DNA of 64,000 nt from Actinopolyspora lacussalsi subsp. righensis (GTDB lineage Bacteria; Actinomycetota; Actinomycetes; Mycobacteriales; Pseudonocardiaceae). Of this stretch, positions 9,269 through 33,898 are shown piece by piece. The stretch is from the NCBI RefSeq assembly GCF_900116555.1, contig NZ_FPAT01000001.1, positions 62,001-126,000 of the forward strand. Direction: 5' to 3'. A program made the position numbers and the translations under genes. Within the stretch, counting starts at the first letter, position 1, and each line of letters starts with the position of its first letter. The notes beneath the pieces were generated by a model that did no database searches, was not told where the DNA came from, and saw only the letters and a program-made list of their open reading frames with translations.

Positions 9269-10632
9269 TGTTGTTGCCTCTTCGCGAACAGATCCCGGAA
9301 AGCGGTGTAGTTGGCGATGATCTCGACCGAGTCGGCCGAGTCCCCGATGGTGGCACTGTGCAGCGCTCGCTGCACGTTCGTGGCGATTTCGCAGTTCACT
9401 TCCGCGTAACGCAGTCGGACCGCCAGATCCAGCGCCCGCTCCCCCGTGACGACGACCTTCCTTCCCGCCAGCCGCTCGAACTCGATGTCCCACAACCAGG
9501 AGACGTCGTGTCCGTCGGCCTGCCTGCTGTTGACGACCAGGATCAGCGGGCGGTCGTTCTCGGCCACCAGGTCGAGCATCTCGAGCCAGCTGGCCGGGTT
9601 CTTCGCCAGCAACAGCCGCACGTCGTGTCCGGCCATGGTCGTGTGTTCGTATCGTCCGCTGGCATCGCGCAGTCGACGGATGCGGTCGAGCGCCTCGGCG
9701 CGGGGTATGTCCAACGCCGCGGCGGCCGCGAGCGCGAACGTGGCGTTGACCCGATTGACCTGCCCGGGCAACGGCAGGGACAGTCCCTCGCTCGCTCCGT
9801 CCGGAGCGGTGAGCCCGCCCGCGTCGACCGTCCAGTCGGCGTTGGGCCTGCGCAACCCGCACACGCATTCCCACGCCTCGTCGATTTCCCCGAGGAAGGC
9901 CCCGCACCTGGGGCAGTTGAGCGCGTCGTGTTTCCAACGGCAGCCGCCCGAGACCCAGGTCACGTGGGGATGGTCGGCCGCGACCGAGACGATGTTGGGG
10001 TCGTCGGCGTTGGCGACCACCCGTGCACCCGGTGCCTGCCGCAGTGCGCGCCGCAGGCTGGACTCCACGCTGCGAATCTCCCCGACACGATCGAGCTGGT
10101 CACGGCTGAGGTTGAGCAGCAGAATCACCGAGGGCTGGAATCGGTCGGTCAGCTGGGCCAGATGCAGCTCGTCGACCTCCAACGCGGCATACGGCGCTCG
10201 TGGCTCGGCCATCAGGGCGGCGACGTGGCCGTCGAGCATGTTGGCCCCGGTGGCGTTGCTGACCGAGGCCCCACCGGCATGCAGCGCCTGGGCCACCATG
10301 TGGGTGGTGGTGGTCTTGCCATTGGTTCCGGTGATCACCACGATTCGTTTGTCCACGACCAGTCGTGTGAGCAGATCCGGTTGCAACGCCAGTGCCACTC
10401 GGCCTCCGATGATGCCGCCGCTTCCCAGCCGCAGGCTTCTGGAGGTGGTCGTGGCGAGTCTTCCCGCCGCCAGTGCAGTGCCGGTGCGGAGTCGGGACAG
10501 CACGTCGGCCCGCCGCGCACGACGCGCGGAGACCACTCGCCAACGCTGTCCGGGATCCGGTGCGGACGGTGTGTGCTGTTGTGATTGACCCGTTGGTTCG
10601 CTTCGCTCGCTCCGGCGGGTCGTGTTCGTCAT
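9265..10632 (-). CDS. murT: Lipid II isoglutaminyl synthase, MurT subunit
   Basis: This 455-residue Mur-ligase-like protein carries the ATP loop TGTNGKTTTTH, a four-cysteine zinc-ribbon insertion (CPRCGAF then CVCG) typical of MurT, and a C-terminal DUF1727 region. Together with GatD it would amidate the alpha-carboxyl of D-glutamate in lipid II, a step that affects cross-linking and lysozyme sensitivity. GGAAAGGACCGG lies just upstream of ATG 10632. The first 35 residues are polar, Ser/Arg-rich and probably disordered. The start overlaps the stop of a small membrane ORF by ATGA and the stop overlaps gatD, suggesting a three-gene coupled unit. Confidence 0.92.
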   Translation of the reverse strand: MTNTTRRSERSEPTGQSQQHTPSAPDPGQRWRVVSARRARRADVLSRLRTGTALAAGRLATTTSRSLRLGSGGIIGGRVALALQPDLLTRLVVDKRIVVITGTNGKTTTTHMVAQALHAGGASVSNATGANMLDGHVAALMAEPRAPYAALEVDELHLAQLTDRFQPSVILLLNLSRDQLDRVGEIRSVESSLRRALRQAPGARVVANADDPNIVSVAADHPHVTWVSGGCRWKHDALNCPRCGAFLGEIDEAWECVCGLRRPNADWTVDAGGLTAPDGASEGLSLPLPGQVNRVNATFALAAAAALDIPRAEALDRIRRLRDASGRYEHTTMAGHDVRLLLAKNPASWLEMLDLVAENDRPLILVVNSRQADGHDVSWLWDIEFERLAGRKVVVTGERALDLAVRLRYAEVNCEIATNVQRALHSATIGDSADSVEIIANYTAFRDLFAKRQQH

Positions 10633-10886
10633 CGACCGGTCCTTTCCTCGACGCGGCGGACTGGGGGCGGCACAGTGATCCGACGGTGGGGTGGGCTTCG
10701 TGACTTCGTCTCACTGTCGTCGTCAGCGCGATCGTTGGCCGCTGATCGCGTGATGAGAAGTCGGATACCGAAAATCGCGGCCAGTGTCATTCCCACGGCG
10801 ACGGCAGCGATACCCACCCATTCCCGGGGTAACGCGACGGCCAGCTGTAGTGCCGCCACGAGACAGGGCAACTGTTCTGCGAACAT
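10629..10886 (-). CDS. Small membrane protein upstream of murT
   Basis: This 85-residue frame has a hydrophobic core with probably two membrane helices (LVAALQLAVALP and WVGIAAVAVGMTLAAIFGIRLL) and a charged C-terminal tail. Its TGA overlaps the murT ATG (ATGA), the main argument that it is translated. The ribosome binding site at 10886 is weak. I recognise no family. If real, it could tether or modulate the MurT/GatD complex at the membrane, but that rests on position alone. Confidence 0.5.
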   Translation of the reverse strand: MFAEQLPCLVAALQLAVALPREWVGIAAVAVGMTLAAIFGIRLLITRSAANDRADDDSETKSRSPPHRRITVPPPVRRVEERTGR

Positions 10887-11361
10887 GATTCATCGTGTCC
10901 GTTTTCGCGCGTTCACACCTATGACCGGCGGCTTCTGAGTCCGCTCTCACACACCTTCCGAATCCGATTCGCGGATCGTTTCGATCTCACTAAGGGTGAC
11001 CCCTTGACCACAGTTTACTCCGAATCGCCGACATCGGGAGCCGACACTCATTCCCGCCATGCATTTCCCCTTAAAGAATGACACCAAACAACGGAGTGAC
11101 CGCGTGTGATTAAAACACGAAAATCAACAGCTTGCTGTTCGTATTCAACGGCTCGTCACACAACCGTCCCACCTTCCCGGCAGAAATCGAGGCAACACGC
11201 AGTAGCAGAAACCGAAGGACGATCCAAAACGGACCCGAACACCCGAATGACATCCACTTGACTCGAACGAGTGAGTGAAACACGCTTGAACCACCGTCGA
11301 GGAAATCCGCCGGAGAACGGCTGGTTCGCCGCGTGCGCACCAGCATGCCGAGGAGGCACCG
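10887..11361. other. AT-richer intergenic region
   Basis: These 475 bases hold no convincing gene. A stretch around 11040-11150 is clearly lower in GC than its surroundings. Imperfect inverted repeats are AAGGG-TGAC-CCCTT near 10992 and ACTCG-AA-CGAGT near 11260, the latter just after a TTGACT that could serve as -35 for the small gene at 11362. Confidence 0.4.
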
Positions 11362-11454
11362 ATGGAGATGATCGTGCTGCTGTTGCTGTCGGGTTTCGTC
11401 GCGCTCGGAATCGGGTGGACGGTTTGGGACATCCACATCGACAGACGCAGGTAG
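11362..11454 (+). CDS. 30-residue membrane microprotein
   Basis: The frame starts at ATG 11362, 5 bases after a perfect AGGAGG at 11351-11356. It encodes one strongly hydrophobic helix (MIVLLLLSGFVALGIGWTVW) followed by the basic end DIHIDRRR. The good ribosome binding site, clean single-span pattern and positive cytoplasmic tail support a real small membrane protein. No family is recognised and the function is unknown. Confidence 0.55.
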   Translation: MEMIVLLLLSGFVALGIGWTVWDIHIDRRR

Positions 11455-11475
11455 CGGCTCGCCCTCGGGAACTGA

Positions 11476-11922
11476 TCACGTCGGCGGGGGGTCGGCGAAT
11501 CTCCCCCGAAGCATCCCCGTGGCCTGGCCGACTTCGATGAGATAACCGTCCGGGTCGCGCAGATAGCAACGCAGCTCTGCCCCACGATCCACCGGAGGAG
11601 TCAGGAATTCGGCTCCCCGCTCGCTCCAGTCGCGATAAACGGCCCAGATATCGGCGACGCGTATGTTGAGGAAACAGGACACCGGATCTCCGTCGGCCGG
11701 CGGACGCAACGTGGTTTCCGGCTTGTCCGGAGTGGGACCGCCTCCGGGATTCATGATCAACCAACTGTTGGCCACACGCAACGTGCACGGATTCTCCTCG
11801 AGAACCACTCGGCCGCCGACGACGTCCCGGTAGAAAGCGCGCGAGCGGCTCACGTCGCTGACCGTGAGAAAGTGGGTCAGCAGCATTCCCTCGCTCGGTG
11901 CCGGGAATTCCTGGACACTCAT
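11476..11922 (-). CDS. VOC-fold (glyoxalase/bleomycin-resistance type) protein
   Basis: The 148-residue protein is a single vicinal-oxygen-chelate domain pair (LTHFLTVSDVSRSRAFYRDV near the N terminus and CYLRDPDGYLIEVGQ near the C terminus). VOC proteins act as dioxygenases, glyoxalases or drug-binding proteins; the substrate cannot be assigned here. ATG at 11922 has GAGGTGACT directly upstream and is preferred over the frame's earlier ATG. It converges with the microprotein at 11362 and lies about 60 bases downstream of the DUF5996 gene on the same strand. Confidence 0.8.
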   Translation of the reverse strand: MSVQEFPAPSEGMLLTHFLTVSDVSRSRAFYRDVVGGRVVLEENPCTLRVANSWLIMNPGGGPTPDKPETTLRPPADGDPVSCFLNIRVADIWAVYRDWSERGAEFLTPPVDRGAELRCYLRDPDGYLIEVGQATGMLRGRFADPPPT

Positions 11923-11982
11923 AGTCACCTCATCCGTTCCGCGAAATCGATATCGAAGGCGAGGCAGCACGACGAACCGGGA

Positions 11983-12927
11983 TCACCGCGCCGAGGCTCG
12001 TCGCTTCGGGTCGTCCTCCAACGCCCGGCGGTCCCAACCACCGCATTCGGCCGCCGCTTCGTAGGTGGTGCGCAGGAACTCCGCGAGCATCCGCTCCGGT
12101 GAGGAGGCGGTTCGAACGTCCTCGTAGGGCAGCAGGAACTCGCCCTGCTCGAAATAAGCCGCCGCCGGACCGACCGGGTACCGGTCGAATCCCGGTGGCT
12201 CCGGGTAGGCGTAGGCATAGAACGCGCCCTCGGCTCCGCCGCCCGGCCAGAAACCGCAACTGCTGAGCTCGTGCGAGTACCCCTCGACCATGACCCAGTC
12301 GCCACAGTTGGGAGCCCCACCCGGGTGACGAGGTGCCTCACGTCCGGAGAAACGGGTCACGGCCAGATCCATGGCTCCCCAGAAGAAGTGCACCGGGCTC
12401 ACCTTGCCGATGAAGCTCGACCTGAAATCGCTGAACACCCGGTGCGCGCACAACAACTGCCGCCAGAACGACCACGCCTTGTCCGGCTCGTAGGAGGCGT
12501 GCTCGGTATCGGTGTCGAAGGGCAGAGCCCGCACCACCTCGTTCGGGGTACGGCTCACGGTGAGCCGTATTCCGAGTTCGTCCAACGCCGCCATCGTCTC
12601 CCGGTAGAAGTCGGCAACGGTTCTGGCGGTAAGAGCGATCTCACGTCGCCCACCGTCACTGCGACGGATCAACAACCGGTGCTCGTGGAAGTCGAACTCG
12701 ATGTCGAACACATCGTCGTAGTACGGGACCGAGTCAGTGGTCAGGCCACGAGCCGAGACGTAGAGCGGCACCTGCCACCAGTGGTTGATCATCGGTTGGC
12801 AGGCCAGCTTGATCTTCCCGACCAGCTGTAACCACATGTGCAGGGTGTCACGGGTATCGCTCCAGTCCTCGACCCGCAGTTCGGGCCAGTGCGGTCCCCG
12901 TTCGGTTCGTGTGCTCGTACCGTTCAT
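11983..12927 (-). CDS. DUF5996 family protein
   Basis: This 314-residue soluble protein matches the DUF5996 family, with WPELRVEDWSDTRDTLHMWL at the N terminus, LACQPMINHWWQVPLYVS, and SPVHFFWGAMDLAVTRFSGR in the middle. The biochemical role of the family is unknown to me. ATG 12927 is favoured over the in-frame GTG three bases upstream because GGAGAGGTG sits directly before it. Several clustered His, Trp and aromatic residues suggest a ligand-binding pocket, but no catalytic motif can be named. Confidence 0.75.
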   Translation of the reverse strand: MNGTSTRTERGPHWPELRVEDWSDTRDTLHMWLQLVGKIKLACQPMINHWWQVPLYVSARGLTTDSVPYYDDVFDIEFDFHEHRLLIRRSDGGRREIALTARTVADFYRETMAALDELGIRLTVSRTPNEVVRALPFDTDTEHASYEPDKAWSFWRQLLCAHRVFSDFRSSFIGKVSPVHFFWGAMDLAVTRFSGREAPRHPGGAPNCGDWVMVEGYSHELSSCGFWPGGGAEGAFYAYAYPEPPGFDRYPVGPAAAYFEQGEFLLPYEDVRTASSPERMLAEFLRTTYEAAAECGGWDRRALEDDPKRRASAR

Positions 12928-13062
12928 CACCTCTCCCTCCCGACCTGTTCCGAGCCGGCGGCCGAATCCGGGACATCGGCGCTGCGCGGGAGGTGGCCAA
13001 CTCGCGTCCGAACCCAGGACGCCGTCGTCGAGAACGACCGTCGGAAAACCGCGCGGAATCGT

Positions 13063-14055
13063 TCACCTCGTGCGCTGCGCGGGTGGGGGCGTGAAAGTGA
13101 TCTCCTCGTCCGGAGCGGGAACCCTGAGTGTGGGCAGCACCTGCTCGATCTCGGCGCGGGAGGGCTCCAGCCACGGAGGGAGTTTCAACGCCCTGCCCAA
13201 CTCCATCAACGGCTCGTCGACGGTGAAACCCGGTGGATCGGTGGCGATCTCGAACAACACGCCACCGGGTTCACGGAAGTAGATGGAGTGGAAGTAGCGA
13301 CGGTCCAGCACCGGGGTCACGTCGAGCCTCTGATCCAGCAGCGTGTTCCGCCAGTCGACCTGTTCGGCGTCGTCGGAAGCACGCCAGGCGATGTGGTGCA
13401 CGGTGCCCGCCGCGACCATCCCCAGCGGGGCTTCGGGGCTACACAGCACGTCCACCATCGCGCCGGAGCCACCGGCACCCGTGGCGAATCGGAACCGCGC
13501 ACCGGACTCCTCCACGAGCCGGAACCCCATGGTCTCGGTCAACAGTTCAGCGGTGTGCTCATGCCCGATTTCCGTCACGGTGACCGAGTGAAGTCCCCGT
13601 ATGGCGTACTCGGGCGGGATAGGTCCCTCCTCCCAGGGCGCGCGGGAGTCCGCCTCGGGATGCCCGACCAGCTCGATCAACAGACCGTCCGGATCGGCGA
13701 CCGTCAGGGTCTCCTCGCTCGACCTGCTGGTGGGGGTGCCGACGTTCACCTCGAGACCGTCGAGATGCTGCTGCCACCACCCCAGCGAATGCTGCGGAAC
13801 GGAGAAGGCAACGGTCGTGGTCTGCCCGGCACCACGACGTCCACGCGGCGCCGCGGGCCAGGGGAAGAAGGTGATCAGTGTCCCGGGCTGACCCGATTCA
13901 CCCCCGAAGTAGAGGTGATAGGTGTCCGGAGCGTCGAAGTTGACGGTCCGTTTGACCAGCCGCAGCCCCAGCGCGGTTCGGTAGAAATCCGCGTTGCGCT
14001 GTGGATCCGTAGCGATCGCGGTCACGTGGTGTAATCCGCCTGGCGTAGTCGGCAT
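13063..14055 (-). CDS. Ring-cleaving dioxygenase, two-domain VOC family
   Basis: The 330-residue protein carries two VOC modules. The first begins GLHHVTAIATDPQRNADFYR and the second IRGLHSVTVTEIGHEHTAEL. Metal-ligand positions typical of extradiol-type enzymes are visible: HHVTAI, VHHIAWR and a late glutamate in LFEIATDPPG. It resembles the MhqO/MhqA group that acts on hydroquinone- or quinone-derived compounds, although substrate is not determined by sequence. ATG 14055 is chosen because GGAGGCGGAGATC precedes it; the upstream in-frame ATG at 14079 has no such site. Confidence 0.85.
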   Translation of the reverse strand: MPTTPGGLHHVTAIATDPQRNADFYRTALGLRLVKRTVNFDAPDTYHLYFGGESGQPGTLITFFPWPAAPRGRRGAGQTTTVAFSVPQHSLGWWQQHLDGLEVNVGTPTSRSSEETLTVADPDGLLIELVGHPEADSRAPWEEGPIPPEYAIRGLHSVTVTEIGHEHTAELLTETMGFRLVEESGARFRFATGAGGSGAMVDVLCSPEAPLGMVAAGTVHHIAWRASDDAEQVDWRNTLLDQRLDVTPVLDRRYFHSIYFREPGGVLFEIATDPPGFTVDEPLMELGRALKLPPWLEPSRAEIEQVLPTLRVPAPDEEITFTPPPAQRTR

Positions 14056-14204
14056 GATCTCCGCCTCCCTCGCTGGCACCCGCTACGGTTGGCGAACCAA
14101 CCGACGGGACGGCTGTGGCTGTTCGCCCCATCCTCCGGTATCTCCGTGCTTCTCGCAGCGCACGCGACCAACCGAGGAGACGAACGAGGTGGGGTGCGCC
14201 GGCG

Positions 14205-15155
14205 TCACTGCTCGGATCGGCCGTCCTGTCGCTGCGGCACCACCGTGTAGTAGGGATCCCGAGCCGTCTCCCGCCCCGCTTCGAACACCCCATAACGAGT
14301 GGCGGCCGACGCGGCGGTGCCACTGACGGCCACCAGCACCGCCACGCTCCCGCTGCGCCGAGCGAACAGCGCACCGAGGGCGCATCCCGCTGCCAGCACG
14401 CGAGCCGTTCGCAACGCAGTGCCCGCCCTGCCCGTGCGGTAAGCCTCGGCGATCCTGCCCGCCCGCTGTTCCAGCACCCGGCTCGCGAGCAGTTCGCCGA
14501 GAGACCCGAGCACGGCCATTCGCCGCGCCGGAGCGGCCTCCGACCGCGGTGCCAATCCCGTTCCCAGCGCACCGGCCGCCGCCACCGAACTGAAGGCGAA
14601 CACGAAGGGAAGCTCACGACGAGTCTCGTGCCAGCCGGGTACCGCCGTGTCGGCGAGCAACACCGCCGTGTAGGTCGTCATCGCCGGGGCCAACACCGCT
14701 GCGAACCCGGCCGCCATCCTGGCGAGCGGACGAGCGAACCCGGTGAGTTCGGAGACCGCGACGGCACCGCTGAGCGCGGAGAACGGAGCGAGGATCCAGG
14801 ATCCCACGCTCAACGGCGAGGTGGGTTTGAACACGCGCAACATGTTCAGGAAGCGTCGCGGCCGGCCGAGATCGTGAATGAGCGCCAGCACGCTGGCACC
14901 GGAACCTCCCGCCGCACAGAGCAGCCCGACCCGGCGCAGCCGGGAATACCCACGTAGCTGGGCGAGGGCCCCCATGACGGACGAGGCGCCCGCCATGCCT
15001 CCCAGATAGAGGTAGGCGGGCACGTCCGGCACCTTCCAGGTCGGTTCCTTGATGATCGGCCTGCCGTAGTACGAGCGAAACGGCTCCCGCGCTTCGTGCC
15101 CCGCACTCCGGTCTGAGCCCTCCGCACCCGCATCGCGGTCCGCTCGCGCCTTCAA
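14205..15155 (-). CDS. Formate dehydrogenase membrane subunit, NrfD/PsrC type
   Basis: The 316-residue protein has an N-terminal cytoplasmic segment and multiple hydrophobic helices, with the NrfD-family opening SYYGRPIIKEPTWKVPDVPAYLYLGGMAG. It should anchor the FdhAB unit in the membrane and pass electrons to quinone. The start is TTG at 15155, overlapping the fdhB stop as TTGA, with GGGAGG six bases upstream. E. coli Fdh-N uses a cytochrome b556 (FdnI) here instead; this operon has the haem-free NrfD type. It is the last gene of the operon. Confidence 0.88.
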   Translation of the reverse strand: MKARADRDAGAEGSDRSAGHEAREPFRSYYGRPIIKEPTWKVPDVPAYLYLGGMAGASSVMGALAQLRGYSRLRRVGLLCAAGGSGASVLALIHDLGRPRRFLNMLRVFKPTSPLSVGSWILAPFSALSGAVAVSELTGFARPLARMAAGFAAVLAPAMTTYTAVLLADTAVPGWHETRRELPFVFAFSSVAAAGALGTGLAPRSEAAPARRMAVLGSLGELLASRVLEQRAGRIAEAYRTGRAGTALRTARVLAAGCALGALFARRSGSVAVLVAVSGTAASAATRYGVFEAGRETARDPYYTVVPQRQDGRSEQ

Positions 15156-16171
15156 CGACGACCTCCCAGGAAACAGGCCGCAACGGTCAACGCGGCCGTA
15201 GCGGCGGCGATCGCGGCGTGTGCGGCCATGGCGGGCAGATCCCGGGTGGTGACCACCGGGTCCGGTGGCAGACCGTAGACCTCGGGCTCGTCCAACAGCA
15301 GGAAGAACGCCCCGTCACCTCCCACACCGTCGGTGGGGTCCTGCCCGTAGAGCCTGGCTTCGGTCATCCCCTGCTCGTGCAGCTGTTCGAGACGTTGCTC
15401 GGCCCGCTGCCGCAACTGGTCGAGCGGACCGTACTGAATGGACTCGGTGGGACATGCGGTGGCACACGCCGGAGCGAGTCCCGAACCGAGCCGGTCCTGG
15501 CACAACGTGCACTTGAACGCTCCGCCGTTGTCGGGATGGATGTCGATCACACCGTAGGGGCAGGCGGGAACGCAGTAACCACACCCGTTGCACACGTCGT
15601 CCTGCACCACGACCGTGCCGTACTCGCTGCGGATCAACGCTCCCGTCGGACACACGTCCAGACAGGCGGCATGGGTGCAGTGCTTGCACACGTCCGAGGA
15701 CATCAGCCAGCGCACCTCGGTGGCATCGGAGTCCGCGCCCTCTTCCGGGGTCGTGCTCGGGGCTCCCATCCCGGGCATCCCGATGTCCACGCGGGCACGC
15801 GTCGAAGGGTCGATCCGCTGTTCGACGAAGGCCACGTGCCGCCACGTGGTGGCACCGAGGTCGGTGGTGTTGTCGTAGGACATGCCGGTCAGATCCAGCC
15901 CGTCCTCTTCCAGCAGGTTCCACTCCTTGCAGGCGACCTCGCACGCCTTGCACCCGATGCACACGCTGGTGTCGGTGAAAAACCCCATCCGCTCGGGATG
16001 CCGCTCCGAGTAGCCCGCCTCGGCGCTGGGATCATCCAGCGGGCCGCTGAGCCGGTTGCCTCCCGCCGGGGAATCCGCGGTCCCGGATACGGACGTCCGG
16101 ACGTCGCCACCGGACTGTGCAGCACGTGCGAGTCCGAACAGCGGGTGTTCGGCAGCGCCGTCAGGACTCAT
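15152..16171 (-). CDS. fdhB: Formate dehydrogenase iron-sulfur subunit
   Basis: The 339-residue subunit has the four-cluster ferredoxin layout of FdnH/FdhB: CIGCKACEVAC, CKHCTHAACLDVCP, CNGCGYCVPACPYG and CTLCQDR with CATACPT. It wires FdhA to the membrane subunit. The last roughly 25 residues form a hydrophobic helix ending GGRR, the C-terminal anchor seen in this family. The stop codon of fdhA lies inside the ribosome binding site of this gene (GGAGGTGAGG before ATG 16171), so translation is coupled; GTG at 16177 is an alternative start. About 60 N-terminal residues precede the first ferredoxin motif and look disordered. Confidence 0.93.
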   Translation of the reverse strand: MSPDGAAEHPLFGLARAAQSGGDVRTSVSGTADSPAGGNRLSGPLDDPSAEAGYSERHPERMGFFTDTSVCIGCKACEVACKEWNLLEEDGLDLTGMSYDNTTDLGATTWRHVAFVEQRIDPSTRARVDIGMPGMGAPSTTPEEGADSDATEVRWLMSSDVCKHCTHAACLDVCPTGALIRSEYGTVVVQDDVCNGCGYCVPACPYGVIDIHPDNGGAFKCTLCQDRLGSGLAPACATACPTESIQYGPLDQLRQRAEQRLEQLHEQGMTEARLYGQDPTDGVGGDGAFFLLLDEPEVYGLPPDPVVTTRDLPAMAAHAAIAAATAALTVAACFLGGRR

Positions 16172-16173
16172 CC

Positions 16174-19100
16174 TCACCTCCGTCGGTGTCGCTCGCCCTG
16201 GTACCGGGCATCCGCCGCCGAAGGCGGGTCGTCGGTGCCGGTGTCCTCGGTGATGCCCGCCCGTGCGCGGTAGGTGGCGAGCAGCGTCTCGAGTTCCACA
16301 CCGCGTGGTCTGCTGCCGGGACGGATGTCGCAGGTGCCCGCTTTGGTCTCCATGATGTGCACGGTGGGGTCGAGCGCGACCCCGAGCAACTCGTTCGCGG
16401 CGTCACCGGTGGTCAACCCGTTGGGACCCCAGTGCCAGGGGATGCCGATCTGGTGCAGTGTCCTGCCGTTCGAACGCAACGGACGGATCCGTTGCGTGAT
16501 CAGCACGCGTCCCTCGATCGCTCCGCGTGCGGTGATCACCGTGGCCCAGCCGAGGTGAACCAGCTCGCGCTCGGCCGCCAGTTCCGGGGAGAGTTCGAAG
16601 AACATGGCCGGGGCCAGCTCGGCCAGGTGCGGCAACCACCGACTCATCCCGCCTGCCGTGTGGTGCTCGGTGAGCCGGAACGTGGTGAACACGTAGGGAA
16701 ACACCTCCGCTCCCGGTTCGGCACCGCTGGGTTGGTACCGGTTCTCCGGGCGGTGGTACAGCTGCCGCGCGGAGTTTCGCTGCGTGGAGTGCAGCGTGTT
16801 GCGCAGCGGTGATTCCTGCGGTTCGTAGTGGGTGGGCAACGGCCCGTCGCGCAGTCCGGCGGGTGCGTACAACCAGCCGAGCCCGTCGCCCTGCATGACG
16901 AAGGGGTCGGTGCCGCGCAGCGCGTCAGGGCCGTGTGCGTCGGGGGCCGGCAGGTAGTCGGGGGGTTTGGTCGCCTCGAAATCGGGCACGTCGTGGCCGG
17001 TCCAGCACCGCTGTTCTGCGTCCCACCAGACGTAGGCCTTGCGTTCGCTCCACGGTCTGCCCTGCGGATCCGCGGCGGCGCGGTTGTACAGGATCCGCCG
17101 GTTGGCGGGCCAGGCCCAGCCCCACTCGGGGGCGACCCAGGACTGCCGCTCACCCGGTTCCCGCCGGGCGGCCCGGTTGACCTCGTCGGCGTAGACGCCG
17201 CAGTAGATCCAGCACCCCGAGCGCGTGGAGCCGTCGGAGCGCAACCGGGTGAAGGAGGACAGCGCCCGTCCCTCGGCATCGGTGCCGTTGATCTCGCGGA
17301 GCACGGCGTCCGCGCTGGGTTCGGCGATGTCTCCCTCGGTGGGATAGTCCCAGGTCAGTTCCAGGACGGGGCGGTCGCGTTCGCGCTGGTCCGCGTCGCG
17401 TTCGAGTCGTCGGGCCGCGAGCTTGGACTTGATCCGCAGTCCCAGGTGGTAGAAGAACCACAGGTCGCTGCGCTGGTCCTCGGCAGGTTCGACGGCCTTG
17501 TGGTGCCACTGCAGCATGCGCTGGGTGTTGGTGAACGTGCCGTCCTTCTCGGTGTGCGCCGCCGCGGGCAGGAAGAACACCTCGGTGCCGATCTCGGGCG
17601 GCGTGGTCTCACCGTTGTCGATCTCCGGCCCGTTCTTCCAGAACGTGGCGGTTTCGATCATGTTCAGATCGCGCACCACCAGCCAGTCCAGACTGGCCAG
17701 CCCCATGCGCTGCTGGTGCGCGTTGGCGGTGCCCACGGCCGGGTTCTCGCCGATGACGAAGTAGCCGCGCACCCCGCCCTCGATCTGGTCGATCACGGTG
17801 CGGAAACTGCCGTGGTCGCCGGTGAGCCGGGGCAGGTGATCGAACCGGAAATCGTTCTCGGCGGTGGCGTACTCGCCCCACCAGGACTTGAGCAGGCTGA
17901 CGACGTAGTCGCGGATGTTGCCCCAGTACCCCTTGTCGGCGGCGTTGGTGGCCACGAACCCGTCCAGCGAGAGGTTCGGGTGTGCCCGCGGCATCGGGAT
18001 GTAGCCGGGCAGCAGGTCGAACAGGGTGGGGATGTCGGTCGAGCCCTGGATGCTGGCGTGACCCCGCAGCGCGAGAATCCCACCGCCGGGTCTGCCGATG
18101 TTGCCGAGCAACAGCTGCAGAATGGAGGCGGCCCGGATGTACTGCACCCCCACCGTGTGGTGGGTCCAGCCCACCGCGTAGGCGAAGGCGGTGGTGCGCT
18201 CCCTTCCGGAGTTGGCGACCAGCGCCTCGGCGACCTCGTGGAAGCGCTCCTGGTCGATCCCGCACAGCTGCTCCACGAGCTCCGGAGTGTAGCGGGCGAA
18301 GTGGCGCTTGAGGATCTGGAACACGCAGCGCGGATGGGTCAGGCTCGGATCGGTCTCGGGCTCGGCACGAGGTGTCGACTCCCCCTCCGAGGCCGCTCGG
18401 TCGGGATCGGGTGAACCGAAGACGTCGTTCCACTGGTCACGCTCGCCCGCCGCGGGGTTGATCCGCGCCCCCTGGTAGTACCAACTGCTCTGGTCGTAAC
18501 CGCTTCCGGTGAAACCGGAGAACACCCCGTCGAGGTCCTCGGTGTCGGCGTAGGACTCGTCGACGATCGTGGCCGCGTTGGTGTAGGCGGCCACGTACTC
18601 GTGGAAGTAGTACCCGCCCCGCAGCACGTAGTTGATCAGCCCGCCGAGCAGGGCGATGTCGCTGCCCGCTCGTAGCGGAACGAACGTGTCGGCCATGGCC
18701 GAGGTGCGGGTGAATCGCGGATCGATGTGAATTATCTTCGCGCCGCGCCGGTTGGCTTCCATCACCCACTGGAACCCGACCGGGTGTGCTTCGGCCATGT
18801 TGGACCCCTGGATCACGACGCAGTCGGAGTTGCGCAGGTCCTGCTGGAAGGTTGTGGCCCCACCACGGCCGAACGAGGTTCCCAGACCGGGAACCGTGGA
18901 GGAGTGTCAAATGCGGGCCTGGTTCTCGATCTGGATGGCTCCGAGGGCGGTGTAGAGCTTCTTCATGAGGTAGTTTTCCTCATTGTCCAGCGTGGCCCCG
19001 CCCAGACTCGCGATTCCCATGGTGCGGCGCAGCCGCGTACCGTCCGAATCGGTCTCCTGCCAGGTCTCGTCCCGGGTGCGGATCACCCGGTCGGCGATCA

Positions 19101-19467
19101 TGTCGACCGCGGTGTCGAGATCCAGTTCCTCCCACTCGGTGCCGTACGGCCGCCGGTAGGCGACCCTGGTTCGCCTGTCGGGCGAGGTCACCAACGAGCG
19201 GCTGGCCGAGCCCTTCGGGCAGAGCCTGCCCCGGCTAACCGGCGAGTCGGGATCGCCCTCGATCTGGGTGACGGCCCCGTCACGCACGTACACGCGCTGC
19301 GCGCAGCCCACGGCGCAGTAGGGGCACACCGAGCCGACCACCTCGTCTGCGTCCTCGGTGCGGGCGTGCTCGCGGTCGGTGGCCGCGGAGCGGGCCGCCC
19401 GACCCCGACCGAGCGGGTCGGAGCCCGTCAACTGGCGCAGCACGGGCCAGCGCAGCCATTCCCGCAT
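16174..19467 (-). CDS. fdhA: Selenocysteine-containing formate dehydrogenase, catalytic subunit
   Basis: Two reading frames on the same phase, 18907-19467 and the frame ending at 16174, are separated only by UGA at 18907-18909. Read through, they give one 1097-residue protein with Sec at position 187 in ARI-Sec-HSSTVPGL, exactly where E. coli FdnG has ARV-Sec-HGPTV. Cysteines C48, C51, C55 and C83 bind the N-terminal 4Fe-4S cluster; HPVGFQWVMEA and IDPRFTRTSAMAD are typical molybdopterin-binding segments. It oxidises formate to CO2 at a bis-MGD Mo or W centre. No twin-arginine signal peptide is visible, unlike FdnG. A SECIS hairpin follows the UGA. The start ATG 19467 has a poor ribosome binding site, so the first residues are uncertain. 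Confidence 0.93.
18877..18909 (-). promoter_or_regulatory. UGA-Sec codon and bacterial SECIS element in fdhA
   Basis: The codon is UGA at 18909-18907. Counting its U as 1, nucleotides 15-21 (GGUUCCC) pair perfectly with 27-33 (GGGAACC) and leave a GGUCU loop at 22-26. In E. coli fdhF the same loop GGUCU occupies the same positions, with G23 and U24 contacting SelB, and the GGUU at 15-18 is also shared. Here U17 is paired rather than bulged. The spacing from UGA is therefore that required for SelB recognition. Confidence 0.88.
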
Positions 19468-19719
19468 CGCCGATCACCAACTCTCGTTACCTCCCCGGTG
19501 ATGCTGCGCCCGCCGGTGCGGTGGCGCAACCGCGAGGCTTCCGCTTCCCAACCAGGCTGCCGATCCACGCACTCGGGCGAGCCGGTGGTGGCGGGGGTTT
19601 CGCCGGATGTGCTGAACCCGGCACACGCGGAGTGCGCGGTGCGGTACGTTCCCGATGGGCAACTGATCATGCAGCCGGGCGAGCGCATGACACGTACGAG
19701 TGACCTTCAGGGGGAAGGC

Positions 19720-20280
19720 GTGGCCGACGAGGCGAACGGACAGTCGAGCACGGGCGAATCGAGTGGTTCGGGAACGAACGCTCAGTCCGGGATGGATGCG
19801 GCGGACCAGGCGGCGATGGACGCCGAGATGCAGGACGTGGCCGACAGTGCGCTGTTCCCCGGCCCCGCCGGGCTCGCCAAGGAGATGGCCGACATCGCCC
19901 GGATCGCCGAACGTGCCAACACCAAGGCCGAACTGGCCCAGGCCATCAGCGACAACACGCGCATGGTCGTCGACCCCGACGAGGTCGACGCACTGGCGGG
20001 GTTCTTCGAGGGGAAAGCGCAAGAGCTGGAGGACCGTTCCTGGGGCATATATGAACTGTCCAATGTCCCTCCCCCTGGCACGGATCCGGTCAGCACAGGA
20101 GCGGTATCGCTTCACGGAGAAGTCGCGGCTGGTGATGATCGAGCCTATTACGAGAACTACATGAAACTGGCGCAGGTATTCAACGACACCGCCGCGAGCC
20201 TGCGCTCCAGCGCCGAGCAGACCCGCACCGACGACGCCAATGCCGCCGACAGCTTCGACCGGGAGATCCGGAATGCGTAA
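19720..20280 (+). CDS. Helical acidic protein of a T7SS accessory cluster
   Basis: The 186-residue product is soluble, with a Ser/Gly/Asn-rich start and long helical segments (ALFPGPAGLAKEMADIARIAERANTK, given here only in part as LAKEMADIARIAERA) and an end rich in Asp and Ala. I recognise no named domain, but its position before DUF3558 lipoproteins, a PPE-like protein and EspG suggests an ESX-associated role. GTG 19720 is chosen for the AGGGGGAAGG just upstream; ATG 19687 is an alternative. Its last 8 bases overlap the next gene, so the two are coupled. Confidence 0.65.
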   Translation: MADEANGQSSTGESSGSGTNAQSGMDAADQAAMDAEMQDVADSALFPGPAGLAKEMADIARIAERANTKAELAQAISDNTRMVVDPDEVDALAGFFEGKAQELEDRSWGIYELSNVPPPGTDPVSTGAVSLHGEVAAGDDRAYYENYMKLAQVFNDTAASLRSSAEQTRTDDANAADSFDREIRNA

Positions 20281-20335
20281 CACCGTCACCACAGGGATCT
20301 CCCTGGCAGCCGGGCTGCTACTGCTCGCCGGATGC
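20272..20335 (+). repeat. Direct repeat, lipoprotein signal region, copy 1 (copy 2 at 20991-21054)
   Basis: The 64 bases covering the start codon and signal peptide of the first DUF3558 gene recur at 20991-21054 with only scattered substitutions, beginning AATGCGTAACACC in both. The repeat marks a tandem duplication of the gene; the central portions have diverged much further. Confidence 0.8.
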
Positions 20336-20860
20336 GGTGGTGGTCAGACCGGCCAAGCGGCGCAGGACACCACCGACACCGGAACGAGCGCACCCACCAG
20401 CACCAGCAGCGGCGCCGGAGTGGGCCTGCCGGAACGCACCGCGCCCGCCAAATCCCTCGACCTCTCCGAGCCCTGCGCCATCATCTCCCAACAACAAGCA
20501 ACCAACCTCGGAGTCAACCAACCATTGGAAAGCGCTAATTCCAACGAAAAGAAGGGGTGTAGGTACCAAAAAGGAAACCCCGGCACCGAGGGCGGTTGGT
20601 ACATATTCGTCGCCGCAGACACAAAACAGACTGCACAAGACTTCTCCTCGCGATCCCCAGATGGCCGAGTCACAAAAATATCTGGGTATCATGCATATCA
20701 AGTCGATGACGGTGGAGCATGCATGATCGCAGTTGACGTTTCTGACGAAGGATCGATTTTCATCAACGGGATAACGCGACTTCAGAAAAATCGTGCTGCC
20801 GCTTGCCCGATCTCTACCAAGTTCGCCGAAGCCGCGATCGAGAACCTACCTGAAGCATGA
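20273..20860 (+). CDS. DUF3558 lipoprotein, copy 1
   Basis: This 195-residue secreted lipoprotein has a short signal (MRNTVTTGISLAAGLLLLAG) ending at a lipobox cysteine, then a Thr/Ser-rich linker and the DUF3558 domain (LDLSEPCAIISQQQATNLG, GCRYQKG). DUF3558 lipoproteins are common in mycobacteria and Pseudonocardiales and often lie beside T7SS genes; their function is not known. ATG 20273 overlaps the preceding stop. The mid-portion (about 20540-20860) is visibly AT-richer than neighbouring genes, with AAA/AAT codons, suggesting transfer or fast divergence. Confidence 0.82.
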   Translation: MRNTVTTGISLAAGLLLLAGCGGGQTGQAAQDTTDTGTSAPTSTSSGAGVGLPERTAPAKSLDLSEPCAIISQQQATNLGVNQPLESANSNEKKGCRYQKGNPGTEGGWYIFVAADTKQTAQDFSSRSPDGRVTKISGYHAYQVDDGGACMIAVDVSDEGSIFINGITRLQKNRAAACPISTKFAEAAIENLPEA

Positions 20861-20991
20861 AACGTACTGAGCACAGGAGACATACTGGAAAGATCCCCAT
20901 TTCGCCTGCCAAGGTGGAAGCAGTACCAGCCGAGGTAACGGAACCGGTCCATGCGGACGGCACGCAACTACACGGGAAGCCGCATCCGGTA

Positions 20992-21573
20992 ATGCGTAAC
21001 ACCCTCACCACAGGAATCTCCCTGGCAGCAGGCCTCCTGCTACTCGCCGGATGCAGCGGCCAACCCGACTCCACTGCACAAGAGACCACCGGGGCGGGGT
21101 CGAGCACCCCCACCACCAGCAGCGCCTCCGGAGTAAGCCTGCCGGAACGCACCGCACCCACCAAAAACCTCGACCTCTCCGACCCCTGCACCATCGTCAC
21201 GAAGCAACAACAGCATGACCTGAATATCAATCAAAAACCAGAAGAAACCAACCTCAGCGGAATACAGGGATGCAAATACCAAAAGGGAGACTCAGGCGCT
21301 AAAGGAGGATGGTTCGTCTTCGTCGCAACAAACCCCAACAAAACAGCAGAAGAGTTTGCTCAAAAACGCCCTCGCGGCCAAGTGACAAATATCGCTGGAT
21401 ACCCAGCTTACAAGATAGAAAAATTCCCCAACTGCCAGATTTCTGTTAACATCGCGAATTCTGGTTCACTTTATGTCAACGGAGGGAGTAGGATACAAGA
21501 AAACCGCCCCGATCCCTGCCCGATCTTCACCGAGTTCGCCGAAGCCGCGATCAAGAACCTGCCCAACGCCTGA
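20992..21573 (+). CDS. DUF3558 lipoprotein, copy 2
   Basis: A 193-residue paralogue of the preceding gene. Signal peptide, lipobox (LLLLAGCSG), linker and the segment SLPERTAPTKNLDLSDPC are near-identical to copy 1, and the C-terminal PCPIFTEFAEAAIKNLP is also shared. The central domain differs (TKQQQHDLNINQKPEETN) and is AT-richer than its flanks. The pattern of similar ends and divergent middle suggests diversifying change or partial gene conversion after duplication. ATG 20992 corresponds to the copy 1 start; the frame upstream, from 20857, is probably not translated. Confidence 0.82.
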   Translation: MRNTLTTGISLAAGLLLLAGCSGQPDSTAQETTGAGSSTPTTSSASGVSLPERTAPTKNLDLSDPCTIVTKQQQHDLNINQKPEETNLSGIQGCKYQKGDSGAKGGWFVFVATNPNKTAEEFAQKRPRGQVTNIAGYPAYKIEKFPNCQISVNIANSGSLYVNGGSRIQENRPDPCPIFTEFAEAAIKNLPNA

Positions 21574-21587
21574 GGGGAGCCCGAATC

Positions 21588-22808
21588 ATGGGGGACAGAC
21601 GCACGCTGCCACCGTCCAACCTCGACGGGGCACAGCTGGAGCAGATGCGCTCCTGGGTCAACAGCGGCAAGGGCGCCGAGGCGCTCCACGAGAAGAGCAG
21701 CCGCTGGCGTGACGAGGAGCGGTACATGCGCGACCTCGCCACCGAGGTCAAGGACAGGCTGAAGCGGGCCGGGGCCGTGAACCGGTCCAAGGGTCAGGAG
21801 GCCATGCAGGGCGCCATGTCGCCGGTGGTGCTGTGGACCGAGGTCGCGGCCGACAACGCCACGGCCGAGGCGGTGCGGCTGGAGGAGCAGGGTCAGGCCT
21901 TCAGCAGGGTGTACTCCTCCGTTCCCGCCGCGTCCGAGGAGAAGCCCGTGCCGGAGGAGAACTTCCTCGGGCAGGCCTGGGCAGGCCTCACCGGCGGCAA
22001 GACCGACAACGAGCAGGCGTTGGCGCACAACGAGAAGTTGCGGCAGGACGCGGTCACGGCGTTCAAATCCTACGACACCGCCTCGCAGACCACCGTCAGC
22101 GCGACCCCGACGTTCACCGCTCCCCCGCCGGGCGGCGTCGAGACCGGCGTGCGCTCCGGATCGAATCCCGAGGTCGGTGGCTTCGCCACTTCCCGGGGCA
22201 CGGGCGGCGGCGCTGCCGCGGGCACCCGCAGCTCCTGGACCGGATCCCTGGACACCTCGGGCCAGTCGGCGGGCCGGGGCGGTTCGGGGATCAACCAGCC
22301 CGCGGGCAGTCAATCCGCGTGGCAGCGCCCGCCGGAAGGCGGCTCCTCCGGGTACCGACCGGGGCAGTCCGGCACTCCGGGCGGCGGCGCCGGAAGCGGT
22401 TCGGGCAGCGGTCGCGCCCCTGGCGGTTCCGGCGTCGCGGGCGGCACCGGACGTGCCCCCGGCAGCCGGATCCCGATACGTGGCCTCGGTTCGCTCGCGG
22501 GCGGCTCGGGTGGTGGAACCGGCTCCGGAACGGGTGGTCGAGGCTCCACCGGACTCGGTGGCCGTTCCCTCGGCCCCGGTGGGCAGTCCGGGATCGCGCG
22601 CCCGTCCACCGGTTCCGCCACGGCGGGCGGCGCTTCCTCCTCGGGAGCGGCGAACGGTCGCGGCGGCATGGCGGGAGCGCCACGCGGTCGCGGCCAGCAG
22701 GGCGAAGAGGACGAGGAGCACGAGACGCCGAGTTACCTCGTGGGTGACTACGGCTACTTCGACGGCGACCTGCCGCGCGTCGCGCCACCGGTGATCGGCG
22801 AGGACTGA
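21588..22808 (+). CDS. PPE-like, glycine-rich candidate T7SS substrate
   Basis: The 406-residue protein starts with about 160 helical residues (LEQMRSWVNSGKGAEALHEK) resembling actinobacterial PPE/WXG-superfamily proteins. A long Gly/Ser/Pro-rich low-complexity region follows (about residues 185-370), and then an acidic C terminus ending APPVIGED, a tail pattern seen in Pseudonocardiales PPE-like proteins. It starts 15 bases after the second lipoprotein and is followed by an EspG-like gene, the chaperone expected for PPE proteins. It is probably exported by an ESX system encoded elsewhere, as no Ecc components occur in the window. Confidence 0.7.
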   Translation: MGDRRTLPPSNLDGAQLEQMRSWVNSGKGAEALHEKSSRWRDEERYMRDLATEVKDRLKRAGAVNRSKGQEAMQGAMSPVVLWTEVAADNATAEAVRLEEQGQAFSRVYSSVPAASEEKPVPEENFLGQAWAGLTGGKTDNEQALAHNEKLRQDAVTAFKSYDTASQTTVSATPTFTAPPPGGVETGVRSGSNPEVGGFATSRGTGGGAAAGTRSSWTGSLDTSGQSAGRGGSGINQPAGSQSAWQRPPEGGSSGYRPGQSGTPGGGAGSGSGSGRAPGGSGVAGGTGRAPGSRIPIRGLGSLAGGSGGGTGSGTGGRGSTGLGGRSLGPGGQSGIARPSTGSATAGGASSSGAANGRGGMAGAPRGRGQQGEEDEEHETPSYLVGDYGYFDGDLPRVAPPVIGED

Positions 22809-29001: not shown

Positions 29002-29097
29002 GGAGGCGTAAGGGTGCCTGGTGGCCCCCGCGGTCTTCAAAACCGACGTGGCCGAGCAACTCGGTCAGGCGGGTTCGATTCCCGTCCGCCTCCGCCA
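29002..29097 (+). tRNA. selC: tRNA-Sec (anticodon UCA)
   Basis: A 96-base gene, long because of an extended variable arm, as expected for tRNA-Sec. The acceptor strands GGAGGCG (29002-29008) and CGCCTCC (29087-29093) pair, followed by discriminator G and encoded CCA (29095-29097). The anticodon stem CGGT/ACCG carries loop CTTCAAA with anticodon TCA at 29037-29039. The T arm CGGG-TTCGATT-CCCG and the variable arm between 29046 and about 29070 are clear. It reads UGA in fdhA with SelB. Confidence 0.95.
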
Positions 29098-30626: not shown

Positions 30627-30818
30627 CCCACGACGAAGGTCCTACTCTCCCCTTTTCGTGCCGTGCGAGTCGTGGTATCGAGGTCGACGCGGCAGAGCTC
30701 GGGGAAGCGAACCGCGAAACCCCCCGGAAGCACGTACCGGAACTGTTCCGGCAGCACCGGGCCGACATGCCGTGTCGAAAAGCTTCCCCGATACTCCCCA
30801 CTGCGTATCGTCACGAAC

Positions 30819-32144
30819 GTGGATGAGCGGCGGAACATCCCTGCCACGGACCGGGTGCTCGAGGAGCCCCGGATGGCCGCGGCCGTCGAGCGCTTCGGCC
30901 GGGAACGGGTGAAACGCGCCGTCCATGACGCACAGCGACGCGCTCGGGCCCGTGAGATCCCCGCCGATCAGGTGATCGAGGAAGCGGCGGCGAACCTGCC
31001 CACCTCGACCGGCGGTCTGCGTCCGGTGCTCAACGCCACGGGCGTACTGCTGCACACCAACCTGGGCCGCGCTCCCCTCTCGGAGGCCGCGGTGCTGGCC
31101 CTGCGGGAAGCCGCGGGAACCTGCGACGTCGAGCTGGATCTCCACAGCGGTCAGCGTGGCCGTCGCGGAGCCGGCGTCATACGCGGCCTGCTCGACGCTG
31201 TCCCCGAGGCGGAGAGCGCACACGTGGTCGGCAACGGAGCGGCCGCACTCACGCTGGCCGCCACCGCCCTGGCAGCGGGCCGTGAGATCGTGCTGGCACG
31301 GGGCGAGATGGTCGAGATCGGCGCCGGATTCCGCATCCCCGACCTGTTGTGCTCCACCGGCGCGGGACTGCGCGAGGTCGGCACTACCAACCGTGTCGAG
31401 CTCGCCGACTACCGAGCGGCGATCGGAGCGGAAACCGGATTCGTGCTCAAGGTGCACCCGTCCAACTTCGTGATCAGCGGCTTCACCTCCGCCGTCGAGC
31501 CGGGCGAACTCCACGAGCTGGACGCGCCGCTGGTCGTCGACATCGGATCCGGGCTGCTGGAACCGCACCCCAGGCTGCCGGACGAACCCGACGCGCGCGG
31601 CACGCTGCGGGCGGGGGCGGATCTGGTGGTGGCCAGCTGCGACAAGCTGCTCGGCGGTCCGCAGGCCGGGTTGCTGCTCGGCAGGGCAGGCATCGTCGAC
31701 AAGCTCCGGAGACATCCGCTGGCTCGTGCGCTGCGCCCCGACAAGCTCACCCTTGCCGCGCTGCACGCCACGCTGCACGGACCTCCCACACCGACCGCGC
31801 GTGCGCTGGAGCGCTCGCGGCGGGAACTGCGTGCCCGCGCCGAACGGATCGCGGAGTCGTCGCGGGCATCGGGTGTGGCGGCGACGGCGGCGGAGACCAC
31901 CGCGGGCATCGGTGGTGGTGGGGCACCGGGAGTGGAGCTGCCCAGCGCGGCCGTCGTGCTGCCCGAGCACTGCTCCGAACGACTGCGCCGCACCGTGCCG
32001 CCGGTGCTGACCAGGATCGAACGGGGGAACTGCCTGGTCGACCTGTTCGCGCTGGCCCCGGAGCGGGACGAGGAACTGGTCGAGGCGATTCGCCGGGGTG
32101 CGCGGGCGACGGATCCGCTCGTGGGAGGCGCGTCATGCGAGTGA
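30819..32144 (+). CDS. selA: L-seryl-tRNA(Sec) selenium transferase
   Basis: SelA is the PLP enzyme that converts Ser-tRNA-Sec to Sec-tRNA-Sec using selenophosphate. The 441-residue protein shows the family's LRPVLNATGVLLHTNLGRAP, VEIGAGFRIPDL, EVGTTNRVE and the PLP-lysine segment SCDKLLGGPQAG (lysine about 276). The N-terminal IPATDRVLEEP corresponds to the tRNA-binding domain start in E. coli SelA, which supports GTG 30819; the frame upstream of this is intergenic. Its stop lies inside selB (10-base overlap), so selA-selB is one coupled unit. Confidence 0.95.
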   Translation: MDERRNIPATDRVLEEPRMAAAVERFGRERVKRAVHDAQRRARAREIPADQVIEEAAANLPTSTGGLRPVLNATGVLLHTNLGRAPLSEAAVLALREAAGTCDVELDLHSGQRGRRGAGVIRGLLDAVPEAESAHVVGNGAAALTLAATALAAGREIVLARGEMVEIGAGFRIPDLLCSTGAGLREVGTTNRVELADYRAAIGAETGFVLKVHPSNFVISGFTSAVEPGELHELDAPLVVDIGSGLLEPHPRLPDEPDARGTLRAGADLVVASCDKLLGGPQAGLLLGRAGIVDKLRRHPLARALRPDKLTLAALHATLHGPPTPTARALERSRRELRARAERIAESSRASGVAATAAETTAGIGGGGAPGVELPSAAVVLPEHCSERLRRTVPPVLTRIERGNCLVDLFALAPERDEELVEAIRRGARATDPLVGGASCE

Positions 32145-33898
32145 TCGCCACGGCAGGTCACGTGGACCACGGCAAGTCCACGCTCATCAAAGCCCTGACC
32201 GGCAGCGATCCGGACAGGTGGGCCGAGGAACGACGTCGCGGGCTGACCATCGACCTGGGATTCGCGTGGACGACCCTGCCCGGTGGCGAGACGATGGCGT
32301 TCGTCGACGTGCCCGGTCATCAGCGATTCGTGCGCAACATGCTGGCCGGGGTCGGCGAGGTCGCGGGCGTGCTGTTCGTGGTGGCCGCCGACGAGGGGTG
32401 GATGCCGCAGTCGGACGAGCACCTGCAGGCGTTGCACGCCCTGCGCGTGCGGCGGGGGGTGCTGGCGATCACGCGCGGCGATCTCGCCGACCCGCTCCCC
32501 GCGCTGGAACAGGCACGACGGCGACTGGCGGGCAGCTCGCTGGCGGGACTTCCCGAGGTGGTGGTCAGTGGAACCACCGGGGCCGGGTTGCCCGAACTCA
32601 CCGGGAAGCTCGACGAGCTCGCGAGCCTGCTCCCGAATCCCGACCCCACCGCCGACGTGCGGCTGTGGTTGGACCGCTGCTTCAGCGTTCGAGGCGCGGG
32701 GACGGTGGTGACCGCGACGCTCTCCGCGGGCACGCTGGCCCGAGGCGACGAACTCGTGGTGGCCGGAACCGGAAAACGCGTGTCTGTCCGGGGACTACGG
32801 AGCCTCGGAGAGGAGTACGAAACGGTCCGCGCGACGGCGCGGGTCGCGCTGAACCTGCGCGGGGTGCACGCGGGGGAACTCGATCGCGGGGACGCGTTGC
32901 TGACACCGGGGGCGTGGCGGAGCACCGACCGGGTGGACGTGCTGTTGCGGGACAGCGAATCCGGCGAACTGCCCCGCGAACTGGGCATGCACATCGGTGC
33001 GGCCACGAGCGAGGTGCGACTGCGGCCGTTGGGAGCGGACACCGCGCGACTCTCGCTGCGTGTCGGGCTTCCGCTGCGGATCGGTGACGACGCGCTGCTG
33101 CGGGACGCCGGACAGCACCGGATCCCCGCAGGGATCCACGTTCTCGACGCGCGTCCGCCGGAATTGCGTCGTCGGGGCGCTGCCGCCTCCCGTGCTCGCG
33201 AGCTGGAGCGGGCGAGAGATCAGCCCGCAGGCGCCGTGCTGCTCGCGAGGGATCGCGCGATCCGCGCCTCGGAGCTCCGTGTCCTGGGAGCGGCCCCTCC
33301 CCCACATGCCCTGGTGTCCGGGGACTGGCTGCTGGATCCGAACGCCCGGGACGAGTACGCGGCACGGCTCGTCGAGCTCCTCGACCGGGTTCACGAGGCG
33401 GATCCGATGGCGGACGGTCTCTCCGAGCAGGAAGCGGTACGGCAGCTGTGCCTGCCCCACGCATCGTTGCTGCCACTGGTGCTGAGCTCGGCGGCTGCCG
33501 CCGGTATCGGAACGGGCGACGGGAGGCTGCGGCTGCGAGGCCCCGAGCTGAGCGAGCACGTGCGGCGGGGCGTCACCGCTATCCGTGCGCGGCTGGCCCG
33601 GCATCCCTTCGACGCACCCACCGCGGCAGAACTCCGAGAACTCGGACTGGACAGCGAACAACTCGGCGCGGCGAACAAGGCCGGTCAGCTGCTTCGGATC
33701 GGCGAGGGAATCCACCTGCTGCCGGGGGCGTTGCGGCGGGCGCGGGACGTGCTGGCCGCGCTGCCGGAACCGTTCACCCCGAGCGAGGCACGTGATGCCC
33801 TGGAAACGAGCCGCCGGGTGGTCGTCCCGTTGCTGGAACGGCTCGCCCGCGAGGGCTACACCCGACGACTTCCCGACGGAACCCACCGAGTGCGCTGA
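32135..33898 (+). CDS. selB: Selenocysteine-specific elongation factor
   Basis: SelB is the EF-Tu-like GTPase that carries Sec-tRNA-Sec to the ribosome at a UGA followed by a SECIS hairpin. The 587-residue protein begins RVIATAGHVDHGKSTLIKAL (G1 loop residues 8-16), with switch II DVPGHQRFVRNMLAGV, and has EF-Tu-like domains 2 and 3. A C-terminal half with winged-helix repeats follows (for example AAELRELGLDSEQLGAANKA), which binds the SECIS loop. Length is close to E. coli SelB (614). ATG 32135 overlaps selA by 10 bases. Confidence 0.95.
   Translation: MRVIATAGHVDHGKSTLIKALTGSDPDRWAEERRRGLTIDLGFAWTTLPGGETMAFVDVPGHQRFVRNMLAGVGEVAGVLFVVAADEGWMPQSDEHLQALHALRVRRGVLAITRGDLADPLPALEQARRRLAGSSLAGLPEVVVSGTTGAGLPELTGKLDELASLLPNPDPTADVRLWLDRCFSVRGAGTVVTATLSAGTLARGDELVVAGTGKRVSVRGLRSLGEEYETVRATARVALNLRGVHAGELDRGDALLTPGAWRSTDRVDVLLRDSESGELPRELGMHIGAATSEVRLRPLGADTARLSLRVGLPLRIGDDALLRDAGQHRIPAGIHVLDARPPELRRRGAAASRARELERARDQPAGAVLLARDRAIRASELRVLGAAPPPHALVSGDWLLDPNARDEYAARLVELLDRVHEADPMADGLSEQEAVRQLCLPHASLLPLVLSSAAAAGIGTGDGRLRLRGPELSEHVRRGVTAIRARLARHPFDAPTAAELRELGLDSEQLGAANKAGQLLRIGEGIHLLPGALRRARDVLAALPEPFTPSEARDALETSRRVVVPLLERLAREGYTRRLPDGTHRVR

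Follow-up and report, generated by a model that had tools for sequence, protein, structure and literature searches.

The fdhA gene of Actinopolyspora lacussalsi subsp. righensis almost certainly encodes a formate dehydrogenase of the selenocysteine type, in which UGA codon 187 would be decoded as selenocysteine with the help of a SECIS hairpin and SelB, the product being part of a membrane-anchored FdhABC enzyme. The gene lies in a stretch of 64,000 nucleotides (hereafter the window), and this reading is supported by the gene itself, by the presence of selD, selC, selA and selB in the window, by conservation and covariation among relatives, and by the co-occurrence of tRNA-Sec. FdhA belongs to a known family of actinomycete formate dehydrogenases that is fairly common, and it is new only as an instance. 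The features concerned are the following:

14205..15155, minus strand: fdhC, NrfD/PsrC-type membrane anchor (PF03916, E 1.4e-10; PF14589, 4e-9)
15152..16177, minus strand: fdhB, Fe-S beta subunit, whose GTG start codon overlaps the stop codon of fdhA; a single hydrophobic stretch at the C-terminus
16174..19467, minus strand: fdhA, alpha subunit of formate dehydrogenase; read through the UGA it has 1097 residues, with predicted Sec at 187
18877..18895, minus strand: putative SECIS hairpin GGUUCCC-GGUCU-GGGAACC; 7 bp, loop 18888-18884
18907..18909, minus strand: in-frame UGA, presumed Sec codon
27924..28940, minus strand: selD, selenophosphate synthetase (TIGR00476, 371.2 bits)
29002..29093 (ARAGORN: 29002-29097), plus strand: selC, tRNA-Sec with anticodon UCA (Rfam RF01852, 78.1 bits)
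30663..32144, plus strand: selA, longest ORF (TIGR00474, 398 bits)
32135..33898, plus strand: selB, 587 aa (TIGR00475, 252.6 bits, cut-off 242.25); start overlaps the selA end

The initial annotation had described two in-phase frames separated by one UGA at the residue where E. coli FdnG has selenocysteine. Its coordinates were right, and alignment with E. coli fdnG (NC_000913), where the stop is at residue 196, sets DNQARV*HGPTVASL against ENQARIUHSSTVPGL of the window. It was silent on the strand; fdhA is on the minus strand. The upstream ORF (19467..18907, minus strand; 186 aa) is closed by the UGA at 18909-18907, past which the frame remains open until the UGA at 16176-16174, giving 186 residues ahead of the internal UGA, 910 beyond it and a joined product of 1097 residues with U187. 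The computed mass of this product is 122.2 kDa and not the approximately 119 kDa first proposed. The stop codon at the Sec site is followed by His, as in selenocysteine-containing alpha subunits of formate dehydrogenase; both FdnG and FdhF of E. coli have selenocysteine at the aligned place and then His.

The joined protein has Fe4S4, molybdopterin and dinucleotide-binding domains (PF04879, PF00384 and PF01568, all above the Pfam cut-off), and from residue 5 to residue 1068 of the 1097 it scores 1911.2 bits with NCBIfam NF041513 (formate_DH_Act; cut-off 1400), which makes it a member, no difference from the family being seen; it also passes TIGR01553 of NCBIfam (904.5 bits, cut-off 814.2). Homology to structures of Sec-containing formate dehydrogenases (1h0h, 6sdv and 1kqf in PDB) runs across the UGA, and the residue of 1h0h that is printed X, in the context QARIXHS, sits at the UGA column of the alignment. 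E. coli FdnG starts with MDVSRRQFFK, a Tat motif, whereas residues 1-60 of the window FdhA (encoded at 19467..19288) lack the RRx[FL] motif that a strict FDH-N (FdnGHI) would be expected to have, and of 80 FdhA homologues just one has an [ST]RRx[FL] motif preceding its first Fe-S cysteines, the other 79 being without it. Because the Tat motif is absent, the label FdnG was dropped; judged by its sequence, FdhA probably works like FDH-N but is not FdnG. The anchors differ as well, that of E. coli FDH-N being the cytochrome b FdnI and that of the window being of the NrfD type. Other places in the same genome that resemble formate dehydrogenase are 25-38% identical and partial, and one of these with two TGA codons inside (L101) was rejected as the ordinary end of a 748-residue frame plus sequence beyond it.

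The hairpin starts 11 nt past the UGA, and its GGUCU loop lies 18 nt past it. The claim that this distance resembles that of E. coli fdhF held exactly, the GGUCU of fdhF being 18 nt past its UGA; fdnG has AGUCU at the same distance. A hairpin just 3' of the UGA with an apical loop of the GGU/AGU type is what is expected of a bacterial SECIS element, and energy alone says little. The RNA fold after the UGA, proposed as a check, bore out the hairpin over a short span and not over a longer one: folding 29 nt gave the 7-bp hairpin at -12.6 kcal/mol, modestly above chance (z -1.94; 6 of 200 shuffles at least as good), and folding 48 nt favoured a different pairing (z 0.00; 96 of 200 shuffles equally good). 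At gathering score, Rfam has no SECIS family match in the window, where its sole match is the tRNA-Sec.

Identification of the putative SECIS hairpin is decided by comparison across species and not by folding energy. In 81 sequences (58 distinct), 94.6% of the cells of the hairpin pair. In columns 18 and 30, each a third codon position, the pairs UA, CG, UG, GC and GU occur, and none of the 58 distinct sequences has a mismatch there; the changes are compensatory and synonymous. None of 500 shuffles, which ignore relatedness, attains the covariation score of 0.222, and all six slid controls are lower, the highest at 0.110. Cells changed on both sides number 25, again reached by none of 500 such shuffles, which likewise ignore relatedness; doubly changed pairs, on the other hand, number two, a count that 283 of 500 shuffles also attain and that is thus no better than theirs. 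Since the outermost pair (15/33) is broken in 22 of the 58 distinct sequences, the conserved stem consists of 6 bp. The rival minimum-energy pairing of the 48-nt fold, a lower stem that joins columns 11-16 to 42-47, does not covary and was discarded.

Relatives of fdhA numbered 508, and the best 80 were kept; when the Sec-site codon of these closest homologues was read, two chance regex matches were removed. The codon is TGA in 79 of the best 80 and TAG in one, so that all 80 have a stop there. The best loci, 93% identical, belong to Actinopolyspora, and every one of the ten Actinopolyspora genomes searched, including that of the present organism and another marked as the same species (98% identical), has a single frame with one TGA. 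The two separate proteins in close relatives that would have spoken against a selenoprotein were thus not found. The genome with TAG is that of Modestobacter sp. DSM 44400 (L030, L089), which has a tRNA-Sec of anticodon CUA; a second TAG case, in class-sample genome G402 (L173, L224), also has a CUA tRNA. ARAGORN labels the CUA tRNA-Sec of the UAG genomes as tRNA-Pyl. Saccharomonospora saliphila YIM 90502 (L054/G001) has a UGA-type fdhA with an AGUUU loop in the hairpin, a tRNA-Sec (76.4 bits, UCA) and a SelB-like match under the cut-off (211.9 bits, positions 1-324); PMC5029168 lists this strain under orphan SelD.

Selenocysteine-containing formate dehydrogenase had been called uncommon in actinobacteria, which a survey of 394 genomes of the class contradicts. 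With thresholds of E <= 1e-100 for the enzyme and E <= 1e-10 for tRNA-Sec, and with nine genus rows (L103-L111) left out of the count, a formate dehydrogenase of the fdhA type was found in 109 genomes. The codon at their 112 Sec sites is TGA in 88, TAG in 1, TGC in 21 and TGT in 2; by genome, 88 of the 394 carry a stop-type fdhA, two of them with a Cys copy too, and 21 have the Cys form only. A tRNA-Sec was found in 84 of the 88 genomes with stop-type fdhA, against 2 of the 21 with Cys only and 15 of the 285 without fdhA; among 14 control genomes the search matched two, E. coli and M. jannaschii. The four TGA-type genomes without tRNA-Sec consist of 80 to 630 contigs each, one of them (G234) being rated 100% complete, and rechecking them at E <= 1e-4 revealed none at the family cut-off. 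The 15 class genomes that carry tRNA-Sec without this formate dehydrogenase include G017, G163, G287 (with two tRNA-Sec matches) and G389; selenocysteine, if used at all, would serve other proteins in these genomes. The fdhA of G382 (L139), a 63%-complete assembly, has a second in-frame stop, TAG, 457 codons past the Sec codon, which may be decay or error.

The pairs of the hairpin were counted over the class rows pooled with the nine further genus rows, 121 sites in all. Of the 98 stop-type sites, 92 form all six inner pairs and the remaining 6 form five of the six, and the loop matches [AG]GU[CU]U in every one of the 98. None of the 23 Cys sites has six pairs (range 3-5), and the GGUCU loop is present in 3 of them. 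A quick tree (LG+G4, SH-aLRT support only, Sec-site codon masked, midpoint root) was computed from 104 of the 112 rows, the 8 left out being shorter than 700 residues. The 22 Cys rows on it form one group (support 99) nested within the Sec rows, which suggests a single change from selenocysteine to cysteine followed by loss of the hairpin, the direction depending on the midpoint root.

The genes fdhA, fdhB and fdhC follow one another in that order and overlap. The best NCBIfam match of fdhB is TIGR01582 (FDH-beta) with 179 bits, under the cut-off of 335, and its C-terminal hydrophobic stretch is encoded near the 3' end of the gene (15152-15240). By a simple scan FdhC has 4 hydrophobic stretches; it has no match in NCBIfam. 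All four sel genes are in the window (27.9-33.9 kb), which constitutes the Sec-decoding trait. The GGGCACK motif of SelD is what we take to be the Cys form. The family match of SelA starts at residue 57, and its true start may therefore be later, and SelB has a C-terminal winged helix (PF09107). An FdhD homologue (242.2 bits) is encoded elsewhere in the genome. The UGSC-motif selenoprotein family has no match in this genome, and likewise none in any control genome.

The sequence shows the UGA and where it lies, a hairpin that is conserved and covaries, the sel genes together with the tRNA, the order of the operon and the FdhD homologue; from these a mechanism may be proposed in which selenocysteine insertion, the metal, the membrane orientation and the electron acceptor of FdhABC are predictions. 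SelA, with selenophosphate from SelD, would make Sec-tRNA, a process in which seryl-tRNA synthetase also takes part. SelB-GTP carrying Sec-tRNA(UCA) would bind the hairpin downstream of UGA-187 and insert selenocysteine, and selenocysteine 187 is expected to be a ligand of the metal. In a formate dehydrogenase anchored to the membrane (FdhA and FdhB with an FdhC of the NrfD type), FdhA would be the catalytic subunit with molybdenum/tungsten-bisPGD and would oxidise formate, passing the electrons to FdhB and on to the quinone-side anchor.

An internal stop gives fdhA the look of a broken gene, but a nonsense mutation, whether of a pseudogene or by sequencing error, would hardly recur at one and the same codon in all of the 80 closest loci kept and in ten of ten genomes searched of the genus, one of the same species and 98% identical; nor would the frame be expected to stay open for 186 residues before the UGA and 910 after it, or the hairpin to be kept in stop-type genes and lost in Cys-type genes. 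This explanation is barely credible. Equally implausible is that the locus makes two distinct products, one an N-terminal Fe-S protein and the other a protein starting at GTG 18816, where a mechanical ORF does begin: the second protein would be without selenocysteine and the residues after it, solved homologues hold both halves in one chain, and nine full-length Cys relatives have no internal stop.

A very small chance, slightly better than that of either of these, is left for decoding of the UGA by other means (near-cognate read-through, or insertion of Cys or Trp), or for its use as a switch that truncates the protein at low selenium. Relatives do have Cys at this site, and in bacteria some termination occurs at Sec UGA codons. 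Against this stand tRNA-Sec, SelA, SelB and SelD in the same window, the manner in which tRNA-Sec tracks stop-type genes across genomes, and the two UAG cases, in which the anticodon changes with the codon, something that ordinary read-through leaves unexplained. Decoding as selenocysteine remains the preferred reading of UGA-187.

The use of UAG for selenocysteine in Geodermatophilaceae was reportedly described by Mukai et al. in 2016. The same formate dehydrogenase family and hairpin are found there with a CUA tRNA-Sec, whereas the window has UGA and the anticodon UCA. PMC5330540 reports the CUA tRNA-Sec of Geodermatophilaceae and formate dehydrogenases with matching codons, citing an earlier paper.

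PMC7176365 describes three Sec-containing formate dehydrogenases in Actinomycetospora chiangmaiensis DSM 45062, in which removal of formate needs selenite and the proteome includes formate dehydrogenase and Sel proteins at low abundance. By its description, FDH1 of this strain resembles the enzyme predicted for the window in being bound to the membrane and made up of FdhA, FdhB and FdhC, its FdhA (1078 aa) containing Sec; differences are that SelA and SelB are listed with the FDH1 cluster, selA of the window being about 11 kb from fdhA, and that there are two further Sec-containing enzymes besides FDH1. The effect of selenite was credited by the authors to membrane-bound FDH1 and cytoplasmic FDH3 jointly, and formate built up to a molar ratio of only about 0.6 without selenite; with three such enzymes and joint credit, the effect therefore cannot be tied to the present fdhA type alone. 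The initial annotation had predicted that automatic annotation would split or truncate fdhA. Two plasmid copies with annotation were examined, those of Arthrobacter sp. YA7-1 and of Tsukamurella, and the prediction does not hold for either, since RefSeq has one CDS spanning the TGA in both; NF041513 also fits the joined protein. A third record lists no features at fdhA. The accession given for FdhA1 and FdhA2 of A. chiangmaiensis in PMC7176365 is "n.a.", which suggests that annotation missed them. Splitting or missing of Sec-type fdhA thus seems to be a real but not a general problem.

The genes of the window also occur together as plasmid cassettes with the order fdhA(UGA)-fdhB-nrfD-selD-selC-selA-selB, selD being reversed. 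The cassettes are contiguous and about 10 kb long, whereas the window has 8.5 kb of other sequence between fdhA and selD. The two cassettes are:

Arthrobacter sp. YA7-1, pYA7-1a (L228, NZ_CP110115.1), 11992-21865: plasmid typed conjugative
Tsukamurella tyrosinosolvens, plasmid 17 (L229), 7983-17535: plasmid typed non-mobilizable

On pYA7-1a, a Tn3-family transposase gene adjoins the cassette downstream. A tentative idea, to which we give rather less than even weight, is that aerobic actinomycetes keep the whole Sec-decoding trait for one enzyme and that it has spread as a self-contained fdhABC + selDCAB cassette, including by conjugative plasmid, the window being a chromosomal copy into which other DNA was inserted afterwards. 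Some of this has been published: PMC5029168, whose table of bacterial selenoprotein families is headed by FdhA, describes transfers of the Sec trait between actinobacteria, with Arthrobacter among them, and places the Arthrobacter sel genes close to the formate dehydrogenase gene, their only selenoprotein gene. Next to that account, the conjugative plasmid as vehicle would alone be new; literature searches on a plasmid-borne Sec trait and on selenoproteins of actinomycetes, formate dehydrogenase and Streptomyces found nothing. PMC1794560 counts 12 selenoprotein families in actinobacteria.

As a single gene, fdhA matters little. It is a clean instance in which the RNA hairpin changes along with the codon and the anticodon of the tRNA, and a single family thus supplies a natural, well-controlled test set of 98 stop-type sites and 23 with Cys, in which the Cys forms go with loss of the hairpin and look like the outcome of a single Sec-to-Cys change. 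The view of selenocysteine-containing formate dehydrogenase as uncommon in actinobacteria is corrected, and the complete cassettes on plasmids point to a way in which the 21st amino acid may spread.
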